A stretch of DNA of 64,000 bases, from contig NC_092567.1 in the NCBI RefSeq assembly GCF_037975245.1, forward strand, positions 18,854,876 through 18,918,875, read 5' to 3'. Below the pieces are notes generated by a model, which searched no databases, was not told the origin of the DNA, and saw only the letters and a program-made list of their open reading frames with translations. The position numbers and the translations under genes were made by a program. Shown here piece by piece: positions 29,649 through 60,068 of the stretch (its first letter is position 1; the number at the start of each line of letters is the position of its first letter). Origin of the DNA: Apostichopus japonicus (lineage: Eukaryota; Echinodermata; Holothuroidea; Aspidochirotida; Stichopodidae).

Positions 29649-29848
29649 CTATCTCAGACAAGCGGAGACCCTGTTCCAATAGCCAATGGTCGACGAGTAG
29701 CGGTACCCGTTTGGTCCCCCGTTGTGAATACGGGCAAAGTCTTCGCAAGTAGGAGTGTGCCGAAGCCTAGAGTATGTTGCGTAGCGGGTCATGTATGCTT
29801 GTACTGTCCTCTCAGCGCACGCCTTATTCGTGGTACAAGATACCCAGC
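29649..29848 (-). CDS. Lysozyme A, last coding exon
   Basis: 200 nt, acceptor CTTCTCCAG, stop TAG. Encodes WVSCTTNKACAERTVQAYMT, later FARIHNGGPNGYRYSS and ends VSACLR. One residue longer than the same exon in lysozyme B because the B stop TGA aligns with AGA here. Confidence 0.92.
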
Positions 29849-32800
29849 CTGGAGAAGTTCACAAAAGCAAAATATTTCTTAGGCTATGTTGACACTTTAG
29901 TAAATGTGTAAAAGCGAGTTTTGTTTAATTCTCAAATTCCTATAACAGATTAAACTTTGTAAGTTTGGATAATCCCTTTTTGTATCACCAGTTGGGCCAA
30001 TGTCGGTCCTCCAGGACAATTATGTCACCTTGTCCCCTTTTATGCACTCTTCATTTTCCTTAAACTACGGTATATAATGTAATAATAAGAAAACAATATT
30101 ATTTATCCTATTTTGACTCGTGCCCGGTGCTTTGTCTCCTATACCCCTCTTCCTCCCCTTTTCGCTTCTCATCGGGCCTATACTCTACTCACCTGAACCC
30201 AAGTTGCTACTCCTCGTCAGAGCATCAGTGTAGTAGGGCTGTTTGATTTGGAAAGGACCACAAGAGTAGGAACCACGATCCACATTGCATCCAATGTTTG
30301 AGTTGCAATTACTTTCAACCGCACAGATGCAGGCCATGCAATCGCTCGGTACTGGACCTGTGTCACAATGTGAGACAGTATTTTGTTAAGTAACTGATAT
30401 AGGGCCCGTGTGCATGGTGCGATAGGTGAAACCGCCTAACAAACATGACTAACATTAAAAAATATATATGCAATTATATATTACCCTTAACTATATATAT
30501 CAGGGGTCTTTTGGTCAATGAAACGGCGTCATACGACGTTGAATGAAAATACGTTGTGGCTAAAACATTTAGGTAGTTGAATGAAGTTACGTTCTTGATA
30601 ATTGTTGTGAACTGCAATATCGAAAACATTTCAAGCCTATAGTTAACAGAACTAGGATTAGTTCAGGTGTCGTACATGTTTATCTTATATGAAAGAAGAC
30701 AATGAAAGAAACACAATGATGAAAAAACGGTTGAAATATCTTATTCCGCTATGGGAATATTCAAGTTTAAATTTCTATCTGATTGTGTAGAAACTGCTGA
30801 AATCAGACTAGTTGTGATCAGGGACGTCTCTAGAGGGGGGTGTTGTGTTGGGGGGTGTCTCACCCCCCCCCCCAATCTTTGTAAAAATGACGATAGTTGG
30901 AAAATTTGAGTGCGACAGTCGGAATTTCCGACTGTCGGAATTTCCGACTGTCGCCAGCTTCAATTCGGAATTTCCGACTGTCGCACTCTAATTTTTCTGA
31001 CTGTCGCACTCTGATTTTCATATGTTCTTGTACTTTGTGAGTGACATAAAATTTTCGATCAAAATTGACCTTTAATCAGTCATATTTACCGCGTTTTCCT
31101 CGTCACATTGAGAAATTGTATCTCTCGAATCTTATACTCCACCATACAAAACTTCGTATGATTTTGAATACTCTAAAAAAAATATAAAGGGTTGGCCAGC
31201 CTCAATTCGGATAATTTATGTATTAATTTTGCTATTGGGTGGGTCGACCCTGTTCGCTAGCTTCAAGTAAGTTCAGGATATACCAGGGATGTAGCCAGGG
31301 AAGCGACTGCTCCCCCCTTTGAGTGTCGATAAAATGTTTAAAAACTGTTGTTTTTTTTAGCATGGTATTTTGTCAGTGCTTTTTTGATCTTGGATACTCG
31401 TCAGCTCCGTTAACTCGATTAAAATCGTAATAACATTCAGGCCTACTGATTCAACTACTAACTTAGTTTGGCAGATGCAACTAGCGAAATTTAGCCTATA
31501 GCCTATTTAAAACCTACAGTTGGCCATTGCGTAATAAAATATATATTGCCTACCTAACCTCACTCGATTGAATGTCACGAACCGTATGCACAACGACGAC
31601 GACAACGTGCGTTCTCATCCTTTTGGTTCCTTGCTTTAGCAAAAGGAACCTATGTAGTCAGGTTGGCGTGTGTGTGTGTGTATGTATGTGTGCGTTTGTT
31701 TTGCTATCTGACCGAGGACTTGAACAAAAGAATTTCAGGTCCTCGGTTGTGATTTCTAAAGAATCACCACGTCCTCGGAAGAATTCTATTGTATGGGGTA
31801 TTGTTAATGTTACGGTACGTGGATTTGAACATTGGAAAATACAATAGGGTCCTCGGTCTGAATGTAATGCAAACATGTGTGTGTGCGTTTGTTTTGCTAT
31901 CTGACCAAGGACTTGAACAAAAGAATTTCAGGTCATCGGTTGTGATTTCTAAAGAATCACCACGTCCTCGGAAGAATTCTATTGTATGGGGTATTGTTAA
32001 AGTTAGGGTACGTGGATTTGAACAATGGAAAATACAATGGGGTCCTCGGTCTGAATGAAACTCAAACATGTGTGTGTGTGCGTCTGTGACACTTGCTTGG
32101 GTACGCTTTATCTCAATAAGCGAATGTTGGATTGAGGCCAAACTTGGACTATAGATCCGCCATATGGAGAAGGTGTGCCCTATTGTTTTTGGTGCCCACA
32201 AAGGTCACCAAAGGTCAGTTATGGTCCAAAAACGGAAAATATTAAAACTGCAATAACTCCCAGTGCCAATGTGCCACAAGGTTGGTATTTTGGGAAAAGT
32301 TGTGAACTGATTAGAGGAACATTTTCAAATTTAATGGTCATGTGATCCGAGGTCACCAAATGTCAATTAATGATAAAAAACTAGTATTTTTGCGATAACT
32401 TGAGAACAAATATCCGTTAGGGTTGGGAGTTGCTTCAATGTAATCCAATTGTCGACCCGCATCGGGGTGACCCTTGACCTCTGGTGACCTTTTCGTGTTT
32501 TGTAGATTTTTACAGTTTTGATGCTATTTTCAGATGTCAAAGGTACATTCTGATCATAAATGTCAATAGGTTGACCCTGTGTGACCTTTATATGCGAAGT
32601 TATATGGGGTCAAAGTTTTTCGGTCGGAGTTAGGATGGTTGAACAGACTTGTCGTTTTGTTTTTTTGGAATCAGGATATTAAACTACATCTGAAACCAAG
32701 GTCAAAAGGTCAAAGGTCACATTAGACAAAATGTGCTTATTTTGGGAGGAAACGAGCAAAAAAGAAATTGTTTAGTTTTGATGCTAGATTTGGATATCAA

Positions 32801-35800
32801 AGGTACCTTCCGATCAAAAATGTCAATTGGTTGACACCCGTGTGACCTTCGTGTGCGAAGTTATACGAGGTCAAAGTTAATTTTCAGACATTTAATGCAA
32901 CAACTCCCAGTTCCAAGGTGTGACATGGTTGATATTTTTGGACAAGTTGCAAATGGTATAGGGGAATATTTTCAAACTTAACGGTCATGTGATCCGAGGT
33001 CACCAAAGGTCAATTAATGTTAAAAAACTAGTATTTTGGGGGTAGAAAATGGGCAAAGAAAAAATGTTTGAATTTGTATAGTTTGATGCTCTAATTTAGG
33101 TCTCATCAATCAAAAATGTCAATAAGTTGACCCAAGGTGACCTTTGTATGTTAAGTTACAGGGCATATTTTAACCGGGTTCGCATCGCAGTTTGCGAGTC
33201 GAAATAGCCTGTTTGCGAATCATTTCCCTAGTTGATTCGCAAGTTCTGCGAATCATGAATCGCTACGTTTTTCCATCACCAATATAGCCTAACTGGAAAT
33301 CGCAATCAAGTTGCTAATGCATGTTTTACACAGGGCCGTAGTATGTACTATATCTATGACAGTCGTAGTCCGCGAACGGGCGCTAGATATGTGCGGGCAG
33401 TATAAATTACTAGAAGCATGGTCATTGATATATCCGTACTGTACCACTATGATACGGACCATCGCGTAACTGATATTGCTTATATTTTTTTCAAGACGAT
33501 ATTTTTTGAGGATTGAACAAATGACGATAATTTCTTGTGAAAGAAATTTGAAATAAATGTGGAAAAAATGCGATTATCCTTTTTCCGTTTTAAGTGTAAA
33601 TGTTATTCTAGCATTCCATGGTTAAGAAAGTTGAAAAGAAATAAAGTTTATCAACTTTACTGACGTTTGAACTTCGTGAAAAACCCGTCCTTTACAACAT
33701 TGACTGTATAGAGAAAAAACTCTGAAAATCAGTAGAGACATTACCAATTGTGTACGAACAGTAAGTTGGTACACCTTTCAAATTTTACGAAAGGTCGAGC
33801 AAAATACTTTCGAAAAATTCACGCGAAACTGGCATATCGTGCTAAATGCAACTAATGTCATGTAAACAAGGCTCTAGTACACCCATTTCTGAATAAACCA
33901 TAAGACCACATCTAGTGTTAAGCGGGGGAAAAGAAAGTATTTTCTAGAATTTCCACAAAAAAAAAATAATAATAATAATATCCTACCATAGTTAAGTGTA
34001 TAGTAAATAGCCTAACCACTTCGTCGGTTACGGATCTCACGTAACAACAAAAACACAACTAATTGTATTTTGCGAAGTTGACATTTTCTACAAGGACATG
34101 GAAACAATATTAAGCATTTAGTTAATCATGCCAAGTGGCCTAAAACATGGGATTACAAGATTCTTACTTTCATAAAGATGGCCATACTGTAGCATATTGG
34201 GGCCTTGATATCGTGCTATAACTGTATGGTATAGACTGCCTCGTGTATCATGGGGAATAGATTGTTTTGTTCATAATATCGACAGTTTTGTAAGTTAAAC
34301 TTTTTAAAGATTGTAAGACAGATTAAATCTCTTTTCATTTTATCACATAATATAGCTACTCTAACTTGTCATTTTAAAATTTTCATCAGTTTCGTGACAA
34401 TTTAAATTCAAAAAGTTGTCAGTATTTTGAATCCTCAACTGCGAATTTTTTATCGCCAGACACGCAAAAATACTAAAAATTTCCGGGGGCCTTCGCCCCC
34501 TGGAACCCCACACAAGGGGTTCCACCCCTTGACACCACCGGGCGCTAAGGCGGGCCCCTGGACCCCACGACACTATGCTTGCACGCAACAGGGGTTGGTG
34601 TGCATGTTCGCTGCGCGAAACCACCGGTGGGAAATCGGCAGTTGTTTTTAGTGTGTTCGCGAACACACTAAACACAACAAGGAAAAATTATCGTAATTAT
34701 CGAATTATCGCGATAATTTTTGATCTATTTATCGTGACGTTAAAAAGCAAATATCGCCCAACCCTAATTGCAATACCACGTTGTGGGCTACTGGTGCTGG
34801 CTATAGGCTAACATTACAATAATAATATTGCACTGTGTAGTACTGTAGTTTCAGAATGTAATCGGATTATCGGATTTATCGCCATCGGTTGAACAGAAAT
34901 TACATTGTTACAGAATCAGGAGTTCAGGATTCGTGATCGCGCAGTTTCCGTTTTGTAATTTACTTCCGAATACTTCGTCATGGCAGTTTAAGGTTTAAAG
35001 GAGGAAACGGCTAAGAAATGGATTTCGGAGAACAATTGGTCGTGGCTGGAATATGACTTGACTCCCGGCGCGAGTAGGTTAGTTGAGCGAAATGAGAAAC
35101 GGATACCACCTGCATTTTCACACAAGAAATGTATTTATATGTCCTCCTTTTGATGCATACTTTGTGGAATGATAGCGTCAGGCGTATCTAGGCTACAGTA
35201 CATACATTTATACATAAATGAGAAATGAAGATTACTATATTCACAAATTTCTCAATGCTAATCGATTTTTATGCAGTGCTAATCAAAATGGCAGTTGGTT
35301 AGCAAAACGTACTAATCAATTAATTTCGTTTAAAATATGCCCTGTTAAGTTATATGAGGTCAAAGTTAATTTTCAGACATTCAGTGTAATAACTCCCAGT
35401 GCCAAGGTGTTACACAGTTGATATTTTGAGACAAGTTGCAAATGGTATAGGGGAATATTTTCAAACTTAACGGTCATGTGATCCGAGGTCACCAAAGGTC
35501 AATTAATGATAAAAAACTAGTATTTTTGCGATAACTTGAGAACAAATTGCCCGTTAGGGTTGGGAGTTGCTTCAATGTAATCCAATTGTCGACCCACATC
35601 TGGGTGACCCTTGACCTCAATTTGACCTCTGGTGACCTTTTCGTGTTTTGTAGATTTTTACAGTTTCAATGCTATTTTCAGATGTTAAAGGTACCTTCTG
35701 ATCATAAATGTCAATGGGTTGACCCCCGTTTGCCCTTCATGTGCGAAGTTATGTGAGGTCAAAGTTAATTTTCAGACATTTAATGCAATAACTCCCAGTG

Positions 35801-38800
35801 CCAAGGTGTGACAAGGTTGATTTTTTTGGACAAGTTGCAAATGGTATAGGGAAATATTTCAAACTTAACAGTCATGTGATCCAACGTCACCAAAGGTCAG
35901 CTAATGTTAAAAAAGTAGTATTTTAGGGGGAGAAAATGGGCAAAGAAAAAATGTGTGAATTTTTACAGTCATGCTCTATTTAGGTCTCACCGATCAAAAA
36001 TGTCAATTGGTTGACCTCCGGGTGACCTTTGTATGTGAAGTTATGTATACAAGTTCAAAGTTAATTTTTTGACATTTAATGCAATTAAATCTCAATGCCA
36101 AGGTGTGACATGGTTAATATTTTGGGACAAGTTGTGAATGGGGTGGTGGAACATTTTGAAACTTTAAGGTCATGTCATCTGAGGTCACCAATGTTATCAT
36201 ATCTGTTGACACGCTTGTAGGTCTCTTATATTTCTTACATTTTCGACGCCATATTTAGATCTCAAAAGTGCCTTTTGATCAAATATCCGATCACATTTTG
36301 TGATCACAAAATCGTTGGCTATAGTGTTGGTTACTTTATGGGAACATGTAGGACCACAATTACTTGGACTATTTGAGCCCAATCTTGCTTGATAATATTA
36401 TGTGTATTGTCATATACCCCAAGAAAGGAACCCCAGTGCCCTTGGGCTCTTGTTATGATTCTTCCTAGGTTGTTGCACGAACAGCCTGTTATGAAGCTAA
36501 GTTAGCAATCGTATGTGATATGCACTTCCTATAAATAATTATTACACTGCTAATACACGGCGATAACGATATTTTTTTAGGCCACTGCAAATCTGGCTGT
36601 CTTACAAAATATGCAAGTTTATATTGTCCATCAGTTAAGTTCGTCAAATGTATTAAAGTCCAGACATTGGACAATAAACAAGAATCATCCTTCTGGAAAA
36701 ATTGTAAAAGAGCACTATGTTTGTCTTTCTGATATATTATGTAAAAGAACATGTAAAAGAATTCAAACAGGAAACAAAATCTGCTGATAATATGATATCA
36801 TATGTTAATGATGAAAATTGCAACAAGTTGCACCAGATCGCATCTAAGAACCTTCAATTGTTCAAAAATATCTCAAAGGGGAGGGGACACGCCCTCCCCT
36901 TAGACCCCTCCCCCATTTCAATCGCAAAAAGTGCTCCCCTTCCAAATTCCTGGCTACGTCGTTGGGATATACATTGTCTCTATGGTATACAATTAAAACA
37001 CTCAATGCTAAGCTACGGAAGTTTAAAAGTGCCATCAACATAAGCAAAATCTTTGCCCCATAAGGTACAAATGTATCGAAAAAAGTTCTGAACGAAAGTG
37101 CAGTCGCGAAAGATGAGGTGTCTGACTGACACTGACCGTATCGTTGACGATTAGTGCGGGGGGGAGGGTACAAGGCAGCAGTCGGAATGTTCTGGCTCCA
37201 AGACCCATCCAGTTGGATTTTCAGCCACTACACCCCCCCCCCCCCCAATCATCAGGCCTTAGCTACGTCCCTGGCTGTGATGTCACATCCTCACATTTCT
37301 GAAAAGTCTGTTATTTTATTAACATGTTTTGTGAGATTTTATGACTTAAAACCAAAAGATATGTCATGTGGATCTCATATTTGTCAAGGGAAGTATCAGA
37401 GATTTAACATCTGAAGAATTTTTGATTATATTTTTTTAGGTTTGTGAAAAAATGTTATTAATTTTTATTGAAATATATTCACACATGTTAAGATGTGTGA
37501 TGTCACATCCTTACAGTTAGTCTTTCTACATCAGTCATTTTCAAAGAAATGTTTATATCTTCAAAGCGTGATATCTCCTAAACAGAGCATGCTATCATGG
37601 TAGTTTATTCAATGCTCTGTTTGCCCTTTTTAGCTCTTTCATACAACTTAGATAGACATGTCAGACACCTGAACCAATCCTTTAACAGTTAACTGTATAT
37701 ATTATTAACTGTATATATTATTCATTACAAGATGTACGTTAATTAAGAAAATAAACGTAAAAATTCTAGGAAGCACAATATCTCTTTAAATTTTGCTTTC
37801 TGTTCAAGAATATAAATTGTAAATATTTGTTAACATTTTAAAACATTTCATGCTGTGTATAAACGGCATGGAAATCAGTAACTATGGATTTTCAATTTAG
37901 AGATGAAGGTTTACGCGGTTGAAGCCATTTCTCTTTAGTTAATTATGACTGCTCAAATGTTATCTTTTTCAAGAAGTGTATTGTAATTAATTTCATGTAA
38001 CTGTCTTGAGCGCCTTTGAACAACTTTTGTTGATTTTGGCGCTATATAAATATTTTCTGATTGATTGATTGACTCAAAAACGGTTACATCTCTATGTTAC
38101 GACCCGGTTCCGACGTTTCTATGTTCCGACGAAAAGAAATATTTCGGGGAAAAAAAATTGTTTCCAAGACACCGTTTGTACCAAGAAAACAAGTTTTCTT
38201 ACCCCAATATTTTTGTGACCAAATTTTTAGTGACCCCAAATTTTAGGAAAAATTTCGGGTCACAAGCAATTCTCGGTCACCAGCACTGTTTGGGTCATAA
38301 CCAACTTTTGGTCTCATTTCTTTTTCTGTGAAAAAAATTTTGGTCCGAAAATATGTTGGTTCAAAAAGTGTTGAGTTCCTAAAAAAAAATCTTGGTACAA
38401 ACAAATTTAGGGGGAAAAAATTGCTCCGAATTGTTTCTTTTTGTAGGAACATAGAGACGTCGGAACATAGGGATGTCACCCTCAACAACGACTAACTTAT
38501 AAAGATACTATATTCACAAATACTTAAAGCAGCATTTTGCGTCCTTTTCTATGATTTTTCTCAACCTCACTGACTCCACGATGTCATAACGACATACATA
38601 ACTAGATTATCTATTTAAATCTTACTTCAAATGGTGGCATAACAGTCTAACAATTTACAACTCTCAAGTTTGTTTTTCTCCAAGATATTTTCCGTTGGGA
38701 TCCCAATAAATCTCGCCCATAATATGAATATTTAAACACTACGAACGTCATTGACCAATACGTAATATTATTTAAATTATTATTTAAACATTTCTAAAGC

Positions 38801-39972
38801 GCACATACATAAGCTATGGCGCTGTACAAACTTAAAAGAGTAAAGGTAAAAAACTTAAAGAAACTTAAGAAACCAAGTTAATCATAAGAAAGAGGTAAAA
38901 ATCTTAAAAACAGATAACCCTAAAAGACTAAACAAAACCAATAACGATGGAGAATAAGAAGTCAGCATATACCATGCCACAAAATCAGAAAATAGGATAA
39001 AACAATAGTAAGAGATATATACAAAAAGAATGAGATAATAAGTAAAACTAGATTAATTATATACACGTTTGAAAATGAAAGTCTTAAGACTGGATTTAAA
39101 TGAACTTACAGTACTAGAATTGCGAATAGAAAATGGGAGTGCATTCCACAATTTGGGGGCACAGACACAAAAAGATCGGTCACCAAGGGACTTGCAGCGA
39201 GTACGGGGGGTAGTTAAAATCAAACTGTCATGAGATCGTATGGAGTAGCTCACTGATCGTGGTTTAAGAAGGTCCTTCAGATAAGATGGTGCAGATCCGT
39301 GAAGCGCCTTATAAGTGAGTAATAAAATTTTAAAATCGATACGATCCTTTATCGGAAGCCAGTGGAGAAGTTTAAAAGCAGAAGATATACTGTCATATTT
39401 GTTCAAATTTAGGATGATACGAGCAGCCATATTTTGTACACGCTGTAACTTATTAAGGGAAGAAGTGGGAAGACCATAAAACAAAGAGTTACAATAATCA
39501 AAGTGAGATGTGACAAGTGCCTGAACTAAAGTGCGAGTAGAATCAGTTGAAAGATGCTTACGTAATTTTCTAATACTATACAGGTTAAAACTAGCGATTT
39601 TACAACACCATGCTTGATTTGTGTACAGTCTATATGGCAGTTGTACCAGGGAGTTCCATATAACTCCCTGGTTGTACCAACGCAAAGTTTTGAATCTATT
39701 TTTAGCAACGGCTCATAACTAAACCTGCATCTCTGATTGGTTGAATTCAAACTAGTGGGTTTTGGGAAACTATATGGGAATAAGTTTAAATGTGGAATTT
39801 GTCGGTGGACACTTTTCTCATTATTTGCAAATATCCTTAATAAATCGCCAATTAACGTTGACAATTAACATATTTATGGTGTCAAACTTGCCTTATTAAG
39901 TAAAATGTAGGGACTTGTCTTACCTGCTTCCACAACAGCGATCACCACAATCAAAGTCAAGAGAACCTTCAT
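29649..39972 (-). CDS. i-type (destabilase-type) lysozyme A, gene span
   Basis: Three coding exons, 39972-39924, 30357-30193 and 29848-29649, join to 137 aa; both introns are phase 1 with GT-AG ends. The protein has a signal peptide (MKVLLTLIVVIAVVEA), then an i-type lysozyme domain: CMACICAVESNC with the catalytic Glu at residue 31, GCNVDRGSYSCGPFQIK with the catalytic Asp at 43, and CEDFARIHNGGPNG with the conserved His at 113. It should be secreted and cleave peptidoglycan of bacteria; many family members also have isopeptidase activity. The first intron is about 9.6 kb because of inserted repeats. An in-frame ATG 15 nt upstream (39987) could also start translation; I chose 39972 by match with lysozyme B. 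Length is normal for the family. Confidence 0.9.
30193..30357 (-). CDS. Lysozyme A, catalytic exon
   Basis: 165 nt, phase 1 on both sides, acceptor ACACAG, donor GTGAGT. Encodes PVPSDCMACICAVESNC, the segment with both catalytic acids, and CGPFQIKQPYYTDAL. Same length as exon 4 of lysozyme B. Confidence 0.95.
30495..30505. other. Junction where lysozyme A lacks the module block
   Basis: Left of this point the intron aligns to lysozyme B up to about 57195 (ACCCTTAACTATAT); right of it the intron aligns to B from about 59385 (TCAGGGGT, later AATGAAAATACGTTGTG). The 2.2 kb between, with B exons 2 and 3 and a SINE, has no counterpart here. Confidence 0.8.
31620..36452. repeat. AGGTCA/TGACCT-rich repeat array, copy 2 (split)
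   Basis: Starts TTTTGGTTCCTTGCTTTAGC and ends near AGGAACCCCAGTGCCCTTGG. Same internal units as 24274-27330. It is interrupted at 33159-35344 by a hAT-like element; both sides join perfectly once that and one duplication copy are taken out. Near the start a unit of about 185 bp (TTTGTTTTGCTATCTGACC ... GGTCCTCGGTCTGAATG) is present twice in tandem, 31690-31862 and 31887-32056. Confidence 0.8.
33159..35344. mobile_element. hAT-like element with perfect 8-bp target duplication
   Basis: 2,186 bp with TIRs CAGGGCATATTTTAA / TTAAAATATGCCCTG and TTAAGTTA duplicated at 33151-33158 and 35345-35352. The CAGGG end and 8-bp duplication are the marks of hAT. No transposase frame is visible. A GC-rich island (about 34480-34640: GGGGGCCTTCGCCCCCTGG, CCTGGACCCC) stands out from the AT-rich rest. 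Confidence 0.85.
37940..38075 (+). repeat. LINE or SINE 3' tail
   Basis: The string TTGAGCGCCTTTGAACAAC, then GGCGCTATATAAATATTTTC and a (TGAT)n tail, is the usual form of 3' ends of CR1/L2-type retroposons. Only the tail is present. Confidence 0.5.
38085..38478. mobile_element. Small TIR element (CTATGTTCCGAC ends)
   Basis: About 390 bp with inverted ends of about 40 bp: TACATCTCTATGTTACGAC, GACGTTTCTATGTTCCGAC at the left and the mirror of GACATCCCTATGTTCCGACG at the right. Absent from lysozyme B's intron. No coding sequence. Confidence 0.65.
38767..39600 (-). mobile_element. 5'-truncated LINE, Jockey/CR1-like
   Basis: Inserted into the TIR element between CGTAAT and ACAACACC, which are adjacent in copy 1 (28729-28742). 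The 3' part (38767-39052) is untranslated and AT-rich with GCGCTTTAGAAATG near its end. 5' truncation at 39600 is typical of LINE integration. Confidence 0.8.
39053..39600 (-). pseudogene. LINE reverse transcriptase C-terminal part
   Basis: A single frame of about 180 residues reading LVTSHFDYCNSLFYGLPTS, KLQRVQNMAARIIL, LHWLPIKDRIDFKILLLTYK and LWNALPFSIRNSSTVSSFK. This is the well-known region behind the reverse transcriptase catalytic core of Jockey-superfamily (CR1/Rex-like) LINEs. The catalytic core itself is missing through 5' truncation. The frame is intact, so the insertion is fairly recent. The open frame continues artificially to 39685 into the host element. Confidence 0.88.
39924..39972 (-). 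CDS. Lysozyme A, signal peptide exon
   Basis: 49 nt, MKVLLTLIVVIAVVEA plus one base, donor GTAAGA. Same length and phase as the first coding exon of lysozyme B. Confidence 0.88.
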
Positions 39973-40064
39973 TGTGAAAACCTGCATATTGAGAAAGTGA
40001 ACAGAAAGGAGTTGATCAGTATCCTTCAAAGGCTAAAAATGTTGTGAGAAAACAAAGTGAAAGT

Positions 40065-40144
40065 GTCTCTATAAAAATCTATTTCATGAGAGCTTCATGT
40101 AACTTTTTCAAGGTTATGACCGGCGCATATGTGACGCATATGCT
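40065..40144 (-). promoter_or_regulatory. Lysozyme A core promoter
   Basis: Minus strand has TTTTTATAGAGACAC (TATA-like, about 95 nt before the ATG) and, further up at 40132-40144, AGCATATGCGTCA, with a CRE/ATF-like TGACGCA. Both are kept at lysozyme B (60147-60150 and 60184-60196) while spacing differs. Role inferred from conservation. Confidence 0.5.
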
Positions 40145-40161
40145 GATATTTAAGTATAAAT

Positions 40162-40315
40162 AGTTTTTTTCTCTCGGAATCTCATGTGACTTTAGTGTCT
40201 GCAACTGCCAAATTTTAGTGAACCCCAAATGGAAGTTCAACAGAAGTTCATTTGGGGTTCACTAAAATTTGGCAGTTGCAGACACTAAAGTCACATGCGA
40301 TTCCGAGAGAAAAAA

Positions 40316-40317: not shown

Positions 40318-40350
<33 letters not shown>

Positions 40351-40354
<4 letters not shown>

Positions 40355-48445: not shown

Positions 48446-48446
48446 A

Positions 48447-50463
48447 CTATCCTGTAGTTTCTGTTTTGTTTTCCCCTAATGGGGTGTCATCCTGAAAGGA
48501 TGCCCGAACTAAAGTATCCCGAAGGTCTTTAAATAGCGATGACAGATAGTTCTGAGAAACTGATTTCAGGCGTTCGGTGCCTTGAAGTAGGTGAACATTC
48601 TTCTGACAGATATCAGCCAGTGGTGGGAGACCAGGGTGGAATTCAGTAACCAATTGTTCCCTTTTGGAACTGGTTTTACGAGTTTTGTACGTCAATGTTT
48701 CGGTACGGGGTTTGTTTTTAGCCTTTTTTGATGGTATTTTCAATAGTACCCCGAAAGTACTGTCTGTTTAGGAGGTGATGTGACAGTTCTTTATTGCAGG
48801 AATCAAAATCGACTTCAGAGGAGCAGATGCGTCGAATGCGCAAAGCTTGACTGTACGCAATATTTCTGGTACAGTGACGTGGATGGCAACTGCTTGGTAA
48901 AAGGTTGTGCTTGTTCGTGGGTTTATTGAACAAGTCTGTTTTGAGTGAATCATTTTGTAGGGTCACAGTGGTGTCCAGGAAGTGAACGCCATATCCAGAA
49001 AAATCTGCAGTAAATTTGATAGTGTGATGAAACAAGTTTGTGTCATCAATGAAGAGTTTTAGAGTTGCCTCACCATGGGTCCATATCATGATGATATCGT
49101 CAATGAAACGTAGCACGTGTGTGGTTTCAAGTTTTGTCGAGATAGAAATTCTTTCTCGAGGTTTCCCATAAAGATGTTTGGTACCCATTGCGGTGCCATG
49201 AATTTGGAGGTAGTGTTTGTTGCCAAATACCAGATTATTGCTGGTCAAGATTAGTTGCATCAATTCGGCCAATTCTTCTTCGTGTTGGTTTTGCCATGTT
49301 TCGGTTTGAATGCTTCTGTGCAGGCCAAAATGCCCTCTTCGTTAGGGATATTTATGTATAACGAAGACACATCCAAGGTAACTAACAGAGTAATTAGGGG
49401 AATACTTTTTATTTCCCCAATTTTCCGAATGAAATCCGTAGTGTCCTGCACATAGGACGGTAGGGCCGACACAAGAGGTTAGATGAGAAGGTCCACGAAT
49501 TTGTAAGTTTTTCAGTCGCTGTACCATTAACCGAAATTATGGGCCTCCCGGGATTGCCTTCTTTGTGAATTTTGGGCAGAAAATAAAAGCGACCAGGTTT
49601 TGGGTGGTTTTTCAAGGAGGATTTGGCCTAACTTGCGGTCAATGGACTCGTTAGAAACTATCTTTTGGATGACTCTTTTCACGTTTTGTGTGATTTCTTG
49701 AGTAGGATCAGAATCCAGGAGTTTGTAGTGTTGAGGGTTGCCGAGCAGTCTGTTGGCTTCCTTTCTATATAATTGTTTGCCCATAGTGACAATTGCAGAA
49801 CCTTTGTCGGCTGGCCTGATGACAATGTCGTCGCCCTTCCGGAGTTCATTGATAGCCTGTCTCTCGGTTTTGTTGAGATTGTCGCGAAAGTCTGGGAGGG
49901 AGGTCTGTGTTTATACATCCTCCTCAATTGCCGAAATAAATTATTCAAAAGGCGCACAAAGGGCCTTGGGCGGATTCCACCAGCTTTTTGGCTTAAAATT
50001 GGAATACGAGTCGTTGGTTTGTTGCATGGCAAAAATTTTACGGAGACGTAAGCGTCGATAGAACATATTCAGATCAAGAGAAATTTTCTGAGCGTTAACT
50101 TGCCGCGGTTTAGGTAAAAAAATTAGACCTTTGGAGAGTAGGTTTGTTTCTCCTACCGAAAGTTGGCACTCAATGGTAACACTGCACTTTTGGTGGTGCT
50201 GCATGCGGTCTGTATCTCTTTGCGACGGAATCTGCGAGACCTGTTTTTTTTTGAGGTTTCAAGTTGGGTTTCACCAGAAACTTAAATACCTCTCTTTGGG
50301 TGTCATTATCTCTCTTCAATTGTTAAATTGTCTTGAAGCTAGGGTACGTGAGAGGTCCAAGCATATTTTGGAGACGGAGTCAAGATTTCTTACGAACTCG
50401 TTTTTGGGGAGTTCTTTTTGCAGTTTTCTGGTTTTTGAATCAATTTGCTGGCTAAGTTCGTGA
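48447..50463 (-). pseudogene. Penelope-like retroelement, broken
   Basis: Minus-strand frames line up in the order of a Penelope-like reverse transcriptase: N-terminal helical part (50463 down: LSQQIDSKTRKLQKELPKN), LLSKGLIFLPKP and [70 protein letters not shown] with LDVSSLYINIP, QIHGTAMGTK, then the catalytic FIDDIIMIWTHG, FLDTTVTL, LLPSSCHPRHC and RIRRIC. At least four frame changes break it, one in an A run near 48720-48740; a deletion lies just before the FIDD box. The usual C-terminal GIY-YIG endonuclease is not seen; the copy ends at the microsatellite. Confidence 0.88.
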
Positions 50464-50503
50464 ATGGTTTTGCGACAAATACTTATTTGCACAGCCATTA
50501 ATT

Positions 50504-50978: not shown

Positions 50979-53640
50979 ATTGTACTTAAAGCCGACAAAA
51001 GAAAGCTGTGTCACGCTATACGGACTAAACAGGTGTTCCATTAACAAACTTTATCTCAAATTGTATGATAATATTGGGTCCTTAGCTTAAGAAAGAAAAC
51101 TCTGGAGGCAATTTGGTGATCTGTTGGTTTAATGCGCTCAACTTCGACAGCGTAGCGATTAACTGAAGAGAGTAAAAAATGAAGCAAAAGACATAGAAAA
51201 TAAATTGCTACTAATATCTCCATACACTACCCCTTTAACTCTAGAGGACTTCCAAACTCACTACCCCTTTAACTCTAGAGGACTTCCAAACTCCCAAGAA
51301 ACTGCATAGACTTAACATAATGTAATGACCGAAACACAGGTTCATGTTGCTATGGTATTTATTCAACAACAATAAGAAATGAAAAACCCTGCAAAGACAA
51401 AACAAATGGATCATAAATACAAGATTAAGGTAATTACTTATCATGGATAATTAATGTAAATTAAATGTGCAATGAGAACCAATACATGAGTGACGAGGAG
51501 TCATAAACATTGAGTATTGTTCTTACTTAATTGAATATTGTTTCATTATTCTCAGATGTTGGTCATAGCACTAAATGAATCCAACAATCTCAATTACTTC
51601 AACAAAAAGAATTAAAACAAATCACTTTAGGAAATAAAAAAGAATAATATCAGGTGACATGTCATGTGACCAACTTCATGTTAACAATTGGGTTGCTAAG
51701 GAGATTATGGAACTCTCAGGTCTGATGTTACATTTTAATACTAATTTACACCTTCACCCATCTCCAGGAAACATGGTTATTACAAAGTTTGATCATCCAT
51801 CACTGACTATGATAATGACGAAAGGGATAAGTATAAGCTTAATAGTATACAACTTAGCAAACACATAACGGTCGATGTAGTGCACATTGTTACAAAGATA
51901 TAACGTCAAGGCCAAGGCCCCACAACACACGTGCGTTAGGATAGCACGGTGTGAATGGCGATTTACGGTGACAGGCAAGTTACTTAGGTTACTTAATTGA
52001 CAGCAATTTCGAAATCAAATACACTCTTCATCACTCTGCAATTAAATCCTATCAAACAATCATGAATTAAAGCTTACCCTGAATATCACACGATCTTGTT
52101 AAGCATAAGAATGGCTCCGCAAAATGGAAAGAAGACCATTCACAAAAAGTTGTAATAGTAGTAGTAGTCGTAACAAATGATTCTCACAAAAAGTAGTAAA
52201 GTAAAATAGATGGCGCTCGTCGCCTTTTACCAAGTCCATCGGTAAGGGTTACCACTGTTACAATAATATAAACCACATAAAACAACATACCTGGAAAATA
52301 TGCATTGTGAAATAGATCACCATTGATATGAACACTAGCCAAGTCTAAACTACAAACTTGATAAACCTCCAATTTCCCCACTGAATACCACAGTACTGAA
52401 AAACACATTCACCCAGGCTTGCCCAGGGAAGCTAAACTAAACGAGAATCTTAAAATAAACCAAAGCCCAATAAAAGTACATAAACCCCTGCAACAAACGA
52501 TTGCGAAATATCATCTCACCGAAACAATTTCCCCACCTCCACGTAAGAACCGAAACGTAAGAACCTGACGTACTGTAGTTCACAACCGTAAACTGGAAAA
52601 ACAAAATACAATTATGAATAAAAACACTGTAACGTACACAATGTCAATCTCTAACAAAAACCTTGACACATCTTACAAAAACATAAAACTGCACTGCAAC
52701 CAAGTAATAAGGAAAAATGATAAGTAAGTCCTAACGTTACACTTTGACTACAACAAGACATATAAGCATTTAATATATAAAGTATAGGAATACACTGTCG
52801 TTACTATCTCAATGAAGAAATAGCAAAGTCACATGTACCAAAATGAAACCTAGCAACCTCACAGGAAAACCATATCCCAAGAAAGCTGTCAATAAACAAT
52901 AAAATAAACAAAGGAAACTATTCACCCACCTAAACCTTTAAATTGTATAACCAAGCTGCAGAACACCATCTGTAAAACAGCAACAGCCCAAACAAGATGG
53001 CTGAAGTAAATTTAAGGTAGCATACGCCCATTAAAAGCCCCCTTGACTTACACACTAAATCACAAAAGTAATGTGGTCTCTAAGTCTAGACTAAAGTTTT
53101 CACTAGCTAAACGCTACCCATCACCGGATAGCTGACAAGTTGGCCTTTCATGGCACACCATCAATTTTCCGTACCATGACTATGTAGATTTTTTGCTATC
53201 CGAGCCGGAAGTTTTCGTCACTTGTAAACAAACCTCTTCACTCAGTGGTAAACAAATTTCCTACGCTGCTCCCGGGAGGCCTAAAGGGGTCTAAAATTGC
53301 CTCAATTTACCCAATTTTCTCACCACATGTACTTCCATTCATGCTCTTCAACATGCAAGCCACAAAAAACTAGATTATGATTGATAACAGGTCACAAAAG
53401 ATGTTCTCCCGCTGCTTTTTGGCACTTTTCCTGAGATAGGAGAACAATCGAGCGGATTGATATAGACTCTAATAGGAGTATGCCACCCTAAGATTTCACT
53501 CACTAAAAACGAGGACGCTATAAAACAATTAAAGGAGCAAAGACTAAACTGGAAATCAAATTTGGTCACAACAGATAATATGATATGTTTATCAAATTCC
53601 AAAAATGCTTTTGGTTGCGTTGATAATCGTAACCTTTACT
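50979..53640. other. Intergenic stretch, nothing recognised
   Basis: AT-rich, no coding exon, no known repeat. Only a 34-bp unit (CACTACCCCTTTAACTCTAG...) doubled in tandem at 51225-51292 stands out. Confidence 0.45.
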
Positions 53641-54290
53641 TCGTGACACCTTGCTTGTAAACACGATATCTCAACAGGCGCGTAGCCAAGGGGGGGGGGG
53701 CGAAGGGGGGCAGCCGCCCCCCCCCCCCCCCTTGAGCATATTTTTTACAATTTTTTTTAAGGTTTTTATGATATTGCTAGTATTTTCAAAAGAGAAAATG
53801 CTAAGATGCAACTAACAAGGCATGGGAAGTGCCATTTCCGGCGATCTGGGAGGCAATTACAGCCAAAATTTTCTTGTACGCTCCGCGCCAGCTGGGGGGG
53901 GGGGGTTCGCTTAGATAGTTTGCAATGCAGAATCTACAGTTTCGCCCCTCCCTTGGCGAATTCCTGGCTACGCGCCTGTATCTCAAGAAGGGAAGCTTGC
54001 CCCAATCTCATATTTGGTGTGTAGGAGTACCACATTGAAAAGAAGGCGCCTATTGATTTTAGAGTTCAAGAGTCATTTGAGGCCACCTGATGGGGTCAAA
54101 TTAGAAAACATTATAAACACAATTTACCAAGAAGGGAAGCTCGGACCAAGCTCATAGTTTGTAGTTGTGACACGAGAGCCTATTGTTTGTTTGTTTCTTG
54201 CAAGACAAATGTCATTTGGAGTTACCAGGGGTCAATTTGTGCAAAACTTGCTTCATAATATACCGTACCTCCCACCGACCAGCCTATGAG
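53641..54290. repeat. TGACC-family repeat hosting a MITE
   Basis: Has the family's ACACCTTGCTTGTAAACACG ATATCTCAAG head, TCATTTGAGGCCACC and GGGGTCAA segments. Interrupted by the hAT-type MITE at 53675-53978; the two sides join cleanly without it. Confidence 0.65.
53675..53978. mobile_element. hAT-type MITE with 8-bp target duplication
   Basis: 304 bp, ends CAGGCGCGTAGCCA / TGGCTACGCGCCTG. TATCTCAA is duplicated at 53667-53674 and 53979-53986. Non-coding. Its core matches 20720-20935. Confidence 0.9.
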
Positions 54291-55385
54291 ATAACGTTTG
54301 CATTACGCTAGTGTAGTGAAGTGAAATTGTGTTGCTTGCACCCTATGAATATTTATATGTGTTATGTAATAGTCAGTTTGTAGAGTTAGTAAGTGCACAT
54401 AGCTTTTGCAAGTGTGTTTTGTTAGTTCTGTACACGCTATCATTATGTCTAGCAGCGTCCTTGCAGAGCTCCGGGGTTCGCCTCGTAAACCCCTTAGTAA
54501 TTACTATTTTGATTAATTTTTATTGCATTCGGGTCGTAAATTGCCCAGAGTTACTCATATCTAGAGTCAGTAAGGAGATGTCCACCTTCTTAGAGGCAGG
54601 ATGCCTGAGGTTTTGGATGGTTATAGGCTTCAGGCTCGAAACCACTGGTTTTCCAAGATGGCGGTTCTACCAACATGCAGCGAGCTGGCGAGAGGGTGAT
54701 GGAGTCTCGATGTATGTATTTTCGATGTCCACGACCTTACGCGCCGCGAGCTTATTTTCCGCGAACGAGCTGTACTCAGTTTAGTAAGAGTTTAAGTGAT
54801 AAATATTGTTTCATAATTGCTGTATGTGCCCTATTGTTAGTTAATTGAATTGTAGTTTTAAGTGTTGCCCTTAGGCTAGGCTGTACTTTACTGTACAAAG
54901 TACATATGTTAGGTTATATATTTGGACCTTGGATTTACGGGTTCGTAGCATGTATTGTTTATCGTTAAGCACGTGGGTGCTATTACGTACTATTATATTG
55001 TATTGTACTGATTATTAATTATTGTACCTTTCGAGTATTGTACTGCTCGCTGTTTGAAGAGTATATATGTATATAACGTAATTTGTAGTTTGAACATTAT
55101 TTGTTACTGTTGTTTATTTTATGGACACCCGATACTCATAGCTAGTACAGTAACTACTGTTCATGTACTACGCCCGTGCATCAGTAACTACTGCGCTGTG
55201 TTCGCAACACGGTAACATGTGTTACAGGTGGCACAGTAATTACTGCTGGGTAAGGTTATTCGTAAAAGGGAAATGGATTGGTAGGAATAATTCAGTGACC
55301 TATAGCCTAATTGCTCTCAAAACGTGAGGGTGAAAGCTCGTGGTGGAGTCGTTCTGCAGACGAATTTCATTTCTGTATAGATGCT
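54291..55385. other. Unassigned, LTR-like look
   Basis: A frame of 151 codons on plus (54329-54784) begins with GTG, not ATG, and has no known motif; no call. The region from about 54310 to 55225 (ending AACATGTGTTACA then GGTGGCAC) looks like an LTR with its primer site, but a partner and a target duplication are missing. Confidence 0.25.
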
Positions 55386-55725
55386 ACGGTGGCCCATCTT
55401 GAAATTTCTGTTTCATGTGGACATTTTGAAGTTTCATCTCGACGGTGACACGTTTCATATCTCAAAGTTTCCTTCCTTTCGTTTTAGCTCGAAATGATGA
55501 CTGTTTTTACTTGAAGAACTCGATGCTTTCTCTTCAAAGTTTGACATTTTATCTCATAGTTTTGACGTTTGATCTCAATTGTCATTTGGACAATTTATAT
55601 CAAAATTTGTAAATTGTATCTCTATGATTTTAAAAGTTTCATCTAGAATATGTGATGTTTCTCGTTACATTCCGACGTTTCATGTCGAAAATTGCTCCTA
55701 TATATCTCGAAATGTAACAGTTTTA
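55386..55725. repeat. Degenerate minisatellite TTTCATCTCGAA
   Basis: Loosely repeated units of about 22-25 bp of the type GACGTTTCATCTCGAAA. Its last unit (TATATATCTCGAAATGTAAC, 55702-55721) is also found downstream of lysozyme A (27479-27498), so the minisatellite is older than the gene duplication. Confidence 0.6.
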
Positions 55726-56077
55726 TCATAAAAATGTTTCTCATTCCATCTCGAACATGGGGCATAGTACCATTAAAAATGCGACTTCATGACAAAACGT
55801 TAGATATTTTGCTTCAAAATTAGGCGTAACACATCAGACTGAAATACGGTTTGTCTAAGGGGAATAACACTAGCAAAATATAAACAAAATATGATAATAA
55901 CAAACAATAATTACAGAACACGATAATTTTCAATACTAAACTATATTCTCAATTAGCTAAACGTTTGACATTTTTAACGATTTTTAATTACAACATGAAA
56001 TATATATACGTTTTAGTTTTATAACATATTTTAAGAATATGTATTAATTTTGGGTGATTTTCTTATGATCGATTTGC

Positions 56078-56083
56078 TTTATT
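56078..56083 (-). promoter_or_regulatory. Poly(A) signal of lysozyme B
   Basis: AATAAA on the minus strand, 67 nt after the stop codon, in sequence shared with lysozyme A. Confidence 0.7.
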
Positions 56084-56149
56084 ACTGGAGATTCGTGACC
56101 TTTACTTTAAGGGTTTTTCTTCCTTTAAAGCATAATTTCTTCACATCTA

Positions 56150-56346
56150 TCACAGACAAGCGGATACCTTGCTCCAATAGCCATCGGTTGACGAGTAGAG
56201 GTACCCGTTAGGTCCTCCGTTGTGAATACGGGCGAACTCTTCGCAACCAGGGGTGTACCCAATCCTAGAGGATGTTGCGTAACGGGACATGTATGCTTGT
56301 ACTGTCCTTTCAGCACACTCCTGCTCCGTGGTACAAGATACCCAAT
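56150..56346 (-). CDS. Lysozyme B, last coding exon
   Basis: 197 nt, acceptor TTCTCTAG, stop TGA. Encodes DWVSCTTEQECAERTVQAYM, CEEFARIHNGGPNGYLYSS and YWSKVSACL. Cysteine and His positions match lysozyme A. Confidence 0.94.
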
Positions 56347-59300
56347 CTAGAGAATTTCATGAAAACAAGAGGAAAACAAAATATTTCTTAGGCTTTCTTT
56401 ACACTTTAGTAAATGTGTAAAAGTGAGTTTTAATTCTCAAATGCCTATAGGAGATACTTATCATACTTGGTGTGTGGATGCATCACATTGAATACAAGAC
56501 GCCTATTGTTTTTGGTGGAGGTGTGTATTGGTATTGCCACGTACAGTAGACTGACCTGTGTTTATCATGCCATAGTGTAATATTGTACATCAAGAAAGTG
56601 GTTCGGCCCATTTATATTGTGACAGCTATTTCTATATACTAACAAGCAGAAATTTAGTACAATGAAGTCATCGAAACCTCAATGCATTCTGGTTTTACTC
56701 TTCATTTTCTTCTTAAACTATATTAAAAAATAAGAGAACATTCTTTTTTCCCATTTTGACTCGTGCCTGATGCTTTGTCTCCAATACCCCTCTTCCTCAC
56801 CCTTCCCCGTCTCGTCAGGCCTACACTCTACTCACCTGTACCCAAGTTGTTACTCATCAGTTTAGCATCACTGTAGTAGTCATTTTTGATTTGAAAAGGT
56901 CCACAAGAGTCGGAGTTAACATCCCATCTGCATCCAATATTTTCGTTACAATTACTTTCGACCTCACAGATGCAGGCCATGCAATCGCTTGGTACTGGAC
57001 CTAGTGTGTCACAACGTGAGACAACATATTATAACGTAACTGATAAATTGCCCAGGCAGGTTGCGATGGAACCGCCTAACAAACGTGAACTTACATTTAA
57101 AAAAAAAATTAAAAGAAAATTGAACTTTTAACGAAATTTTAATTCAAAAGTTGCGAAATGTCGCTCCACTTACGTATAAGGACCCTTAACTATATTCTAA
57201 GTACTCCTTCTTCAAGGGTCACTGAATATGACCATATTAAGCAGACAGGCGATCCTAGGCTTATTTAAAAGCAGCAATCAGTTATGGAACGCAGAAAGGG
57301 CAATATTCGTTAGCAACGGCGTCAATTTGTAGCAACAACCACGCATGCCGTTTTGTATAGTATATGGAAATAGCTTATTATTCCACCATAATCATCAGTA
57401 TACATGCATGCCAACACATTGTGTCAACATATTGTGCCGGCCACAGTTTACTCACCAGGTTGCGTTCCGACACCGCCTCCACTACCACAGGTACCAGTTG
57501 GTTTATCGAAACAACACTTGATACCGGCAGCTTTTGTTGGACACAACCCAGAGATGTAGTAACCATTGGGACAAGATGATGTATCAATACAATGACCAAC
57601 TGAACCAGCAGTGGGGTGGTTATAATTGGTGCACTCTGTGTCCGAATCAGCTAATAAAGAAAACAAATTACATTATGCTTGTTTTCATTATAAATGTTGT
57701 GGAGTGTTAAGCTCAGTGGTTAACGCCAGTGCGTTCCAATCATAAGATCCCCGGTTCGAGTCACTCCAAGATTAATGCATGTCTTCCAGTTACAGAGTTG
57801 TTGACAATTGACAATTCATAATCTTCATGGACGTTAAATATGAATGTATAAGAGACTGACTTCGATCAGCGTGCGGCTTTGATAAGCCAATGAGGCTTCT
57901 TCGCGACTTCCTGCTTACAGGAGGATGATGACGGTCTAAAATACATACATACATGTACATACATTATTCGGTAAAGATAAAAAACTTTTCTCTGACCGTT
58001 TCCTATATATGAATATTCACACGTTTGTTAGTGGTTAACAGCATGGAGCTATTAACGAAAGGACATATATCAGGAGCGCAGCTATAGACTTGTTGTGTAG
58101 ACGGGCAGTGCACTGAAAATCCTCGAAAATAACGTGTCCTCTTTTAGCGAGCATTCATGTTACAGTTTTGGTTCACATTGCGTACAATCCACCTCCTTCA
58201 CAAAAATGAGTCAATAAGCAATATAGGAGTATGTATTTTTTTGTTACTTATAGTATATATGCACTGACTTTATTTGGCCAGGGGTGGGGAGGAGGTGATT
58301 ACGTGGAGTGGATGGAAGTACATATATATGTATTGGGAAAATGAGGTCATTTCAGAACACTTTGTTGCCTTGAAAGGGAAGATTGGTGATATCCTTATTG
58401 GTGAATAAAATGTCCTGATTCATATATGTCTAAATTAAAGCTTGGGCTGCCGAAGCTATAAATCTACATGCATTCGGATAATGGTACGTGACTGTCCATT
58501 ATCCCACATATACATTAGCTGTCCATTGAGGATTAATATTTATTTTCCCAATAGAGAGCCGTAGTAGTATTTAGGGTGCTGGTCTCATGAATATTTATGA
58601 CTGAGACTGAATATGGCTTAACATGAGATTACAGTCAGGCCTGGTTAATAAGCTAAGTACCTGTAAAGCAGCATTTCACATGGTTTGCTTGCTGTGGGCA
58701 CAAACCACTGATGGTATTCCCTCCGGGGCAGGCGGTCGCACCATTGTCCATACATTGTCCAGTACAACCGTAGTCACTGTGTTCGTAGGAGGAGCACGCA
58801 TTCTCCTGATAGGCTAGAAGAAAAACGAGGAAAGTTCAACGTAGCCTATACTGCATAACTAATTATCTGTAACCCTTGAAGATTGATCAACTTTAAGTCA
58901 CTGGTTCCAGCCTTTACCTATAGAACGCGCATAGGGCAACCTTAATTAACGGCAGCAACGCATTAGTAGCAACGTCCTGGTATGAACCTGTTGCAAGGCA
59001 GTAGCAACGACGTTTTGGAAGTAGCAACGTCTTATATACTTAGTATAGTAGCCTGATCTAATTAACAATGGCATTATTTTAATTAGTACTAATCTTATAT
59101 TAACTAGTAAAGACAAGTAAAACGTCGGCGCTATGGCAGTTAACATCAATTTAAATCCAATCAGCATCACAAAAAACGATCGCAGTAAGTGTACTCTTGA
59201 TCAGCGATATGTGGCGCTGTTGCAGTTCAACAATTTAAATTCATTCAACGACGTAAGAAAATCTGACACTACACAAGGGTTATAGGCTTTGTAGCGTACT

Positions 59301-60068
59301 TTTGGGTTAGGCCATAATTAATTACTGAAGGGTTCAGTCATAAGTAATTTCAATTGGTCGAATGTTTTATGACACGTTACGTGTCAGGGGTGAGTTGGTT
59401 AATGAAAATACGTTGTGACTAAACAATTTAGGTAGTTGAATGAATTTACGTTTTGAACATTGTTGTGAATCGAACTGCAATAGCGGAAAATATTTCAAGC
59501 TACATTGTTAACACTACTTGTTAGCAGTTGACTGTATATATTATTATTTATTTCAAGATCTCTGATTTACGTTAATCAAGAAAATAAATGAAAAAAGCTA
59601 GGAAACACGATATCTCTTTAATCATTTGTTTCTTTCTGTTCAATAATATAAATTATAAATATTGGTTAACATTTTGATACATGTTACGAAGTGTATAAAC
59701 GGCATAAAAATGATGAAAATCAATGACTATTGATTTTCAATTTAAACGTAAGGGTTTACGTAGTACAAATGCAACAACGACGTCACCCCCCCCCTTCCCT
59801 GCACCCCTATCCTCTATTTTGTTAACAGTGACTCAACTGAATAACTCAGATAATATGTTCACGCATATGCTCAAACCAGAATGTCATGTTTGAGGATAAG
59901 AACGTTGCAGTGCTAGTGGAATATGATTGTCTAAATGTCAGCAATAAAAGGAACGGACTTTCTTTCATATTTCTGGTTTCTAACTTGCCTTCTCTAGTAA
60001 AACGTAGGACTAAACTTACCTGCTTCCACAGCGACGACTACCACAAGAAACGTTTGAAGAACCTTCAT
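56150..60068 (-). CDS. i-type lysozyme B with two Cys-rich modules, gene span
   Basis: Five coding exons, 60068-60020, 58813-58661, 57650-57456, 57000-56836 and 56346-56150, join to 252 aa; all four introns are phase 1 with GT-AG ends. Order: signal peptide MKVLQTFLVVVVAVEA, Cys-rich module 1 (residues 17-67), Cys-rich module 2 (68-132, ending in a Gly-rich linker), i-type lysozyme domain with Glu 147 (CMACICEVESNC), Asp 159 (CRWDVNSDSCG) and His 229 (RIHNGGPNG). It should be secreted and act on bacterial peptidoglycan; the modules may bind the wall or aid targeting, which is a guess. The plain i-type lysozymes of molluscs and echinoderms are about 120-150 aa, so this form is unusually long. 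Confidence 0.9.
56836..57000 (-). CDS. Lysozyme B, catalytic exon
   Basis: 165 nt, phase 1 on both sides. Encodes PVPSDCMACICEVESNC and CGPFQIKNDYYSDAKLMSNN. Catalytic Glu and Asp are kept; the usual Gly after Asp-x is Asn here (DVNSDSCG against DRGSYSCG in A). Confidence 0.95.
57456..57650 (-). CDS. Lysozyme B, Cys-rich module 2 exon
   Basis: 195 nt, phase 1 on both sides. Reads TECTNYNHPTAGSVGHCIDT, CPNGYYISGLCPTKAAGIKC, CFDKPTGTCGSGGG. The pattern GHCxD...C...GLCP...KCC recurs in module 1 and, as I recall, in small Cys-rich domains next to peptidoglycan-cleaving enzymes of other phyla. No counterpart in lysozyme A. Confidence 0.88.
57697..57965 (+). mobile_element. tRNA-derived SINE, family 2, in lysozyme B intron 2
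   Basis: Head GTTAAGCTCAGTGGTTAACG (A box), CCGGTTCGAGTCAC (B box), body with TCATGGACGTTAAATATGAA and GCTTCTTCGCGACTTCCTGC, tail (ACAT)n. Second copy of the family at 50504-50978. Lies within the block missing from lysozyme A. Confidence 0.82.
58661..58813 (-). CDS. Lysozyme B, Cys-rich module 1 exon
   Basis: 153 nt, phase 1 on both sides, acceptor TTCTTCTAG, donor GTACTT. Reads YQENACSSYEHSDYGCTGQC, MDNGATACPGGNTISGLCPQ and HVKCCF. Seven cysteines; same GLCP...KCC ending as module 2, so the two modules are likely tandem duplicates. Confidence 0.88.
60020..60068 (-). CDS. Lysozyme B, signal peptide exon
   Basis: 49 nt, MKVLQTFLVVVVAVEA plus one base, donor GTAAGT. Start chosen at the only ATG, preceded by AAA on the minus strand. 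Confidence 0.9.

Follow-up and report, generated by a model that had tools for sequence, protein, structure and literature searches.

The 64,000-nucleotide (nt) stretch of Apostichopus japonicus DNA considered here (the window, C7:18854876-18918875 in the genome of 671.6 Mb and 35 contigs that we searched) contains two predicted genes for secreted i-type lysozymes, A and B, the second of which has two additional cysteine-rich exons between those for the signal peptide and the enzyme. Exon structure and sequence similarity indicate that A and B are paralogous i-type lysozyme genes, members of one locally expanded family of three types (A, B and C). The predicted products are 137 amino acids long for A and 252 for B; a 142-residue product of A is also possible, from an in-frame ATG 15 nt upstream (39987).

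Two lysozyme genes and the block by which they differ

The exons of the two genes are as follows.

39924..39972, minus strand: gene A exon 1, signal peptide MKVLLTLIVVIAVVEA; 49 nt, ends in phase 1, aligned with exon 1 of B
30193..30357, minus strand: gene A exon 2, first half of the i-type lysozyme domain; 165 nt, phase 1 at both ends (1-1), with Glu31 and Asp43
29649..29848, minus strand: gene A exon 3, second half of the lysozyme domain and stop; 200 nt
60020..60068, minus strand: gene B exon 1, signal peptide MKVLQTFLVVVVAVEA; 49 nt, ends in phase 1
58661..58813, minus strand: gene B exon 2, CRR-type module 1; 153 nt, 51 codons, 1-1, seven cysteines
57456..57650, minus strand: gene B exon 3, CRR-type module 2 and a linker with one cysteine; 195 nt, 65 codons, 1-1
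56836..57000, minus strand: gene B exon 4, first half of the lysozyme domain; 165 nt, 1-1, with Glu147 and Asp159
56150..56346, minus strand: gene B exon 5, second half of the lysozyme domain and stop; 197 nt

All six introns, two in A (9566 and 344 nt) and four in B (1206, 1010, 455 and 489 nt), have GT-AG borders and are in phase 1. A first-pass annotation of this DNA had described two extra cysteine-rich exons in B alone, each in phase 1 on both sides, and the gene models hold up in this respect when rebuilt. It had also given the exons common to A and B equal lengths and phases, which is correct for the signal exon and the first catalytic exon but not for the last exon, where an extra C-terminal Arg codon in A makes 200 nt against 197 in B. 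The symmetry to which it drew attention is a real property of the module exons, but the first catalytic exon is 1-1 too, so symmetry does not set the modules apart.

Each product contains one complete Destabilase domain (Pfam PF05497, GH22i), scoring 107.6 bits in A and 98.2 bits in B against a cut-off of 26.2, and the lysozyme parts of the two proteins are 74% identical (E 2e-66). The closest structure to B in the PDB is that of leech destabilase (8bbu, E 6e-27), followed by the lysozymes 2dqa and 3ab6. The muramidase dyad of destabilase is Glu34/Asp46 (PMC10126035) and it is kept as Glu147/Asp159 in B, by alignment to 8bbu, and as Glu31/Asp43 in A, by way of the A-B alignment. Destabilase-type i-type lysozymes (8bbu, 2dqa and 3ab6) have the whole domain and the Glu/Asp dyad, as do A and B, but their solved chains of 122-124 residues consist of the lysozyme domain alone, whereas B adds the module pair. 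There are 10 cysteines in the lysozyme domain of B and likewise in that of A.

The similarity of A and B extends to their non-coding DNA. Five collinear stretches were found: the promoter with exon 1 and the start of intron 1 (71% identity over 339 bp), two blocks within intron 1 (77% over 247 bp and 83% over 114 bp), the catalytic exon with its flanks (79% over 424 bp) and the last exon with its 3' flank (78% over 447 bp). These matches, at 71-83%, confirm the earlier statement that introns and flanks are common to the two genes. The same comparison returned many simple-repeat matches and, outside the collinear series, one match in the opposite orientation (231 bp, 71%) between 41195-41008 on the A side and intron 4 of B. 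Where the collinear series is interrupted, two features can be delimited.

57196..59383, minus strand: block in B, missing from A and C, that holds both module exons; about 2.2 kb, with a 3' limit uncertain by about 90 bp
30440..30520, minus strand: 'empty' junction in intron 1 of A, collinear with C, from the A-B and A-C alignments

The block has its ends in intron 1 and intron 3 of B: homology to A ends near 59384 in the former and restarts by 57120-57100, perhaps from 57195, in the latter, and in A both flanks of the block adjoin each other at about 30500. The third paralogue, C, is collinear with A through the empty junction (679 bp, 85.7%). No module-like exon was turned up by tblastn in the 9.6-kb first intron of A, and no module exon was turned up by the same means between exon 1 and the lysozyme exons of C. 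On the evidence of these alignments, the difference in modules between A and B amounts to a single block bounded by intron sequence. The reading frame is kept because both ends of the difference lie inside introns and, all introns being in phase 1, a 1-1 block can enter or leave intron 1 with the signal peptide and the enzyme untouched. Intron 1 is in phase 1 in A and B, and the splice sites of C intron 1 and of one outgroup gene on contig C9 fit phase 1 as well; symmetric phase-1 exons in a phase-1 host intron are the configuration of class 1-1 exon shuffling.

The modules and their relatives

The two module exons of B can be recognised as copies of one another (42-45% identity; E about 5e-8 by tblastn). 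Both have six conserved cysteines and end in a CC pair, as does the CRR, the repeat that was defined in rusticalin (PMC6339383); module 1 has an extra, seventh cysteine in the motif DYGCTGQC. The cysteine spacing is x13, x7, x9, x8, CC in module 1 and Cx13Cx5Cx9Cx8CC in module 2. A survey has recorded 382 CRR proteins, 69 of them metazoan, and among the 124 with known domains the partners include phage lysozyme (26), amidase (17) and M15 peptidase (6) (PMC7379824). PLys of Trichoplax sp. H2 is a g-type (GH23) lysozyme that begins with two CRRs and for which the predicted model has six disulfides (PMC12855814). Past the first loop the spacing of PLys CRR1 (x6, x5, x9, x8, CC) equals that of module 2, and the two are identical at 13 of 29 positions, a value reached by 43 of 100000 shuffles in which the cysteines were fixed; BLASTP gave an E of 3e-5 in this single comparison. 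These resemblances identify the B modules, at the level of sequence, as a variant of the published CRR of rusticalin, PLys and other peptidoglycan hydrolases. We term them a CRR-type variant and not strict members because the first cysteine loop has 13 residues in place of 6.

Other candidate relatives were followed up. The P2X head domain was rejected (phmmer E 0.03-0.23, which is chance-like among cysteine-rich proteins), tblastn gave no match in phages and plasmids, and 15 pattern matches in viral contigs and 42 in genome contigs yielded no confirmed case.

A tandem CRR pair on the N-terminal side of a bacterial cell-wall hydrolase is found in B and also at two loci on contig C12. The genome was searched with a single sequence, module 2 of B, which may miss diverged CRRs, and it returned ten places, six of them being the two modules of the three B copies and the other four making up two pairs on C12 (27187159-27190919, L011, and 27341890-27345390, L013). 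The CRR protein sequences of these two loci are identical as read, with CRR2 translated from the same point in both. The CRR exons of L013 read cleanly as 1-1 exons. L011 has an altered acceptor AG at its CRR2 exon, which makes the splicing of this exon uncertain, and this copy may be broken or spliced otherwise. The C12 CRR exons precede exons for an M15-like zinc peptidase (Pfam PF08291, E 0.018, below the cut-off; PDB 1lbu, E 6.5e-4), so that by sequence the loci have a rusticalin-like architecture.

Module 1 of B is 52% identical to C12 CRR1 and has the extra cysteine in common with it, while module 2 is 67% identical to C12 CRR2 and 65% to C12 CRR1. A linker cysteine in the motif KP(T/S)GTC is likewise common to B and the C12 loci, lying at C12 on the next exon. 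Judging by this pattern of similarity, we take the CRR pairs of B and C12 to be homologous as a unit; a small tree of these sequences has few sites and is given no weight here. The C12 loci were ruled out as a recent donor of the block, being too diverged: non-synonymous divergence (dN) between like CRR exons is 0.30 and 0.44, and synonymous divergence (dS) was not computable, its value being returned as -1, as at saturation. Outside the exons, the block and the C12 loci had no DNA similarity except for one 20-bp match.

The lysozyme family and the direction of change

The gene order on contig C7 is B, A, B, A, B and then C, which lies at C7:18675000-18684999 and has exon 1 and both lysozyme exons. 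The same five exons are open in all three copies of B (759 nt each) and the proteins differ at two positions in all. A further A-like copy at C7:17.65 Mb is 97.3% identical to A over 1407 bp, empty junction included. A cluster of seven diverged i-type loci, in which no CRRs were detected, occupies C9:12264353-12594763; three of its first-catalytic-exon matches cross a stop, perhaps beyond the exon end. Across the genome we found at least 14 i-type loci (28 matches, 27 above the cut-off), these being exon-pair matches and not proven genes and the counts being lower bounds for large families, and CRRs were detected in the three B copies only. The region C7:18.69-18.92 Mb is made up of tandem units of about 110 kb that are 97.5-99.4% identical in the stretches compared (99.4% over 53.6 kb, 97.5% over 43.5 kb and 98.9% over 9.1 kb between unit pairs), which would fit either a recent duplication in tandem or the assembly of haplotypes side by side.

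The A, B and C lysozyme paralogues have diverged by a dS of 0.18-0.27, and their non-coding segments are 68-91% identical. From the promoter to intron 2, counts of shared sites (AC/BC/AB) of 34/17/6, 13/5/4, 11/7/5 and 49/10/14 group A with C, the exception being exon 4 (11/17/0), and in its last exon and 3' flank C sides with B (6/41/6; 95.9% of 317 bp). C is a mosaic in which the promoter, intron 1 and intron 2 are nearer A and the last exon and 3' flank are nearer B; from the distribution of sites, its B-like 3' end looks like the result of gene conversion.

The proposal, made in the first-pass annotation, that the modules were gained or lost as one block and in frame is sustained by the single block in B and by C, which has the same continuous empty intron as A. 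A gain, with the CRR block entering intron 1 in the B lineage once that had separated from the A/C lineage, is given an even chance. The empty intron is continuous in both A and C, the seven loci of the C9 cluster have no CRR match, one event is enough, and A and C group together against B from the promoter to intron 2, with exon 4 excepted. What speaks against a gain is the youth of the family, whose low dS contrasts with the apparent saturation between the CRRs of B and C12, together with the lack of a close DNA donor: the nearest other CRRs by protein are those at C12, and a recent donor must have been lost, be missing from the assembly or have moved instead of being copied. The near-repeat ACCCCTGA/ACCCTTGA at the block ends does not help, since it is not above chance (0.24): it was rejected as proof of a mechanism involving target-site duplication or microhomology, 24% of random pairs doing as well. 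Why no close donor is seen, and why the B CRRs diverged from the other CRRs found so long ago, would both be explained if the common ancestor of A, B and C already had the CRR exons and a single deletion removed them in the ancestor of A and C. This history, to which we assign a chance slightly short of even, also agrees with the one clean junction common to A and C, but it requires two events, an older gain and then the deletion, and tblastn turned up no relic of a module exon in the introns of A or C.

The search for a donor at the DNA level was made with the whole block and with the surroundings of module exon 1, module exon 2 not being searched separately. No copy of the whole block was found outside the three B loci among the 40 of 1828 candidates that were scored, a search crowded by a dispersed repeat, and a repeat-free 1393-bp query round module exon 1 gave 11 candidates, all scored, of which three are the B loci and the other eight leave the exon uncovered. 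Of the 41 places that matched the block, the 38 elsewhere in the genome were discarded as possible donors: they correspond to a repeat, dispersed and about 260 bp long, of which one copy lies in intron 2 of B (about 57697-57964) and which is present at 84-92% identity at 37 other places scored and at 71% at one more.

Elsewhere in the window, three features were assigned by eye. Three long open frames on the minus strand at 1469-5573 (845, 285 and 313 amino acids) resemble the gag, protease, reverse transcriptase and integrase of an LTR retrotransposon; a 219-amino-acid open frame at 39053-39712 (minus), inside intron 1 of A, resembles the end of a LINE reverse transcriptase; and broken reverse-transcriptase frames at 48718-50068 (minus), between A and B, appear Penelope-like. 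An inverted repeat lies just upstream of the promoter region of A, with arms of 67 nt at 40165-40231 and 40249-40315 that are 99% complementary.

A possible role for the module pair

The predicted product of B would be composed, in order, of a signal peptide, the CRR pair, a Gly-rich linker (GTCGSGGGVGTQPG) and the lysozyme. PLys has a similar plan, with a signal peptide, two CRRs, a Ser/Gly linker and a lysozyme; its precursor is reported to melt at 50-60 deg C and the truncated form at 25-35 deg C, and its abundant mature form begins at Ser100 (PMC12855814). If B is like PLys in this respect, the CRR pair would act as an N-terminal domain, rich in disulfides, that lends stability to the secreted enzyme, and it may be cleaved off at the linker during maturation. 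PLys is unlike B in its catalytic domain (GH23 in place of GH22i) and its first cysteine loop (6 residues in place of 13), and its lysozyme domain, according to its authors, has one disulfide where g-types typically have two (PMC12855814). The lysozyme domain of A is basic (isoelectric point, pI, 8.7) with 11 trypsin sites; B has an acidic one (pI 4.5, 8 sites), and so does C (pI 4.7, 7 sites). The CRR pair of B is acidic too (net -5, pI 5.0). In bivalve i-type lysozymes a low pI and few trypsin sites are associated with digestion, with exceptions, so that a contrast of this kind distinguishes digestive forms from those of defence, and some oyster i-type lysozymes have a unique N-terminal domain in common (PMC3020801). 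By analogy, the acidic B is possibly a stabilised, digestive lysozyme and A one of the defensive type. Taken as a whole, an interpretation of A and B as CRR-cassette paralogues, with a stabilising pro-domain like that of PLys in B, seems to us probable.

A number of observations weigh against that interpretation. Splicing of the module exons is a prediction from sequence, and the predicted fold of the whole of B, with a mean pLDDT of 38.4, is of no use. C is acidic and has no modules, which uncouples acidity from the modules and weakens the link between them. Because B has 10 cysteines in its lysozyme domain, as A does, there is no lost disulfide to be compensated, unlike the explanation put forward for PLys. 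The CRR exons are near-identical in the three copies of B (one residue is changed in copy B2), and are too alike for a test of selection. The modules do not follow the published spacing Cx6Cx6-7Cx8Cx7CC, their first loop being 7 residues longer; a profile of six CRR sequences matched no chain in the PDB; and the Pfam scan gave no match to the module pair, as it also gave none above the cut-off for the CRR pair of PLys.

The pair might instead be a binding or inhibitor module, serving in substrate targeting or in the inhibition of proteases, as tick carboxypeptidase inhibitor does and as has been proposed for rusticalin, and not a stabiliser. CRRs occur alongside bacterial cell-wall hydrolases in 63 of 124 proteins with known domains (PMC7379824), and the CRR pair of rusticalin resembles a tick carboxypeptidase inhibitor by HHpred (PMC6339383); we nevertheless think this role unlikely, given that the PLys experiment reports stabilisation and removal, not binding (PMC12855814), and that the PDB profile search of the CRRs was without a match. 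The acidity of the pair speaks against a cationic, defensin-like action on membranes. An artefact of assembly or gene modelling, with the copies of B being duplicated haplotypes or the modules part of a separate gene, would find some encouragement in array units so alike that they are possibly haplotypes placed in tandem. It is nonetheless very improbable: A, B and C stay distinct in their non-coding DNA even when the copies are collapsed, and in each of the three B copies the module exons lie between the signal and catalytic exons, on the same strand and in frame.

The stabilising and possibly removable pro-domain, for which the PLys experiment is a precedent, is the role that we prefer. B joins other proteins in which CRRs precede peptidoglycan-cutting enzymes. 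Rusticalin and rusticalin-like proteins have two N-terminal CRRs before a peptidoglycan-type peptidase, with introns in the CRR region, and differ from B in a catalytic domain that resembles L-alanyl-D-glutamate peptidase and in the spacing of their CRRs, as given above (PMC6339383). The CRR proteins of Daugavet et al. (2020) are like B in having CRRs, usually in several copies, before cell-wall hydrolases; its Results name phage lysozyme, amidase, M15 and others as partners, and the words 'destabilase' and 'echinoderm' are absent from its main text (PMC7379824). The view, expressed in the first-pass annotation, that no such module pair had been described on an i-type lysozyme must be narrowed, for the pair is of the CRR type and was already known before an M15-type peptidase and a GH23 enzyme. 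The part that stands concerns the combination: we found no report of CRRs with an i-type lysozyme in the open-licence PMC literature, a scope outside which the supplementary table of PMC7379824 falls. Neither the modules nor their pairing nor their attachment to lysozymes is new; what is new is their combination with an i-type lysozyme, in a case with unusually clear breakpoints.

A bolder reading, to which we give somewhat better than an even chance, is that animals have used the CRR pair again and again as an N-terminal pro-domain, a cassette of 1-1 exons joined to unrelated peptidoglycan-cutting enzymes (M15, GH23 and GH22i). In this genome the cassette would have entered or left a young family in a single block bounded by introns, giving versions with and without it that resemble alleles. 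The exchange of the modules is visible at intron breakpoints in a family with a dS of about 0.2-0.3, where the junction can still be read, and this is in our judgement rare for exon shuffling. A, B and C make up a natural set, one young lysozyme in versions that have the CRR pair and versions that lack it, in which the role of the pair may be tested.

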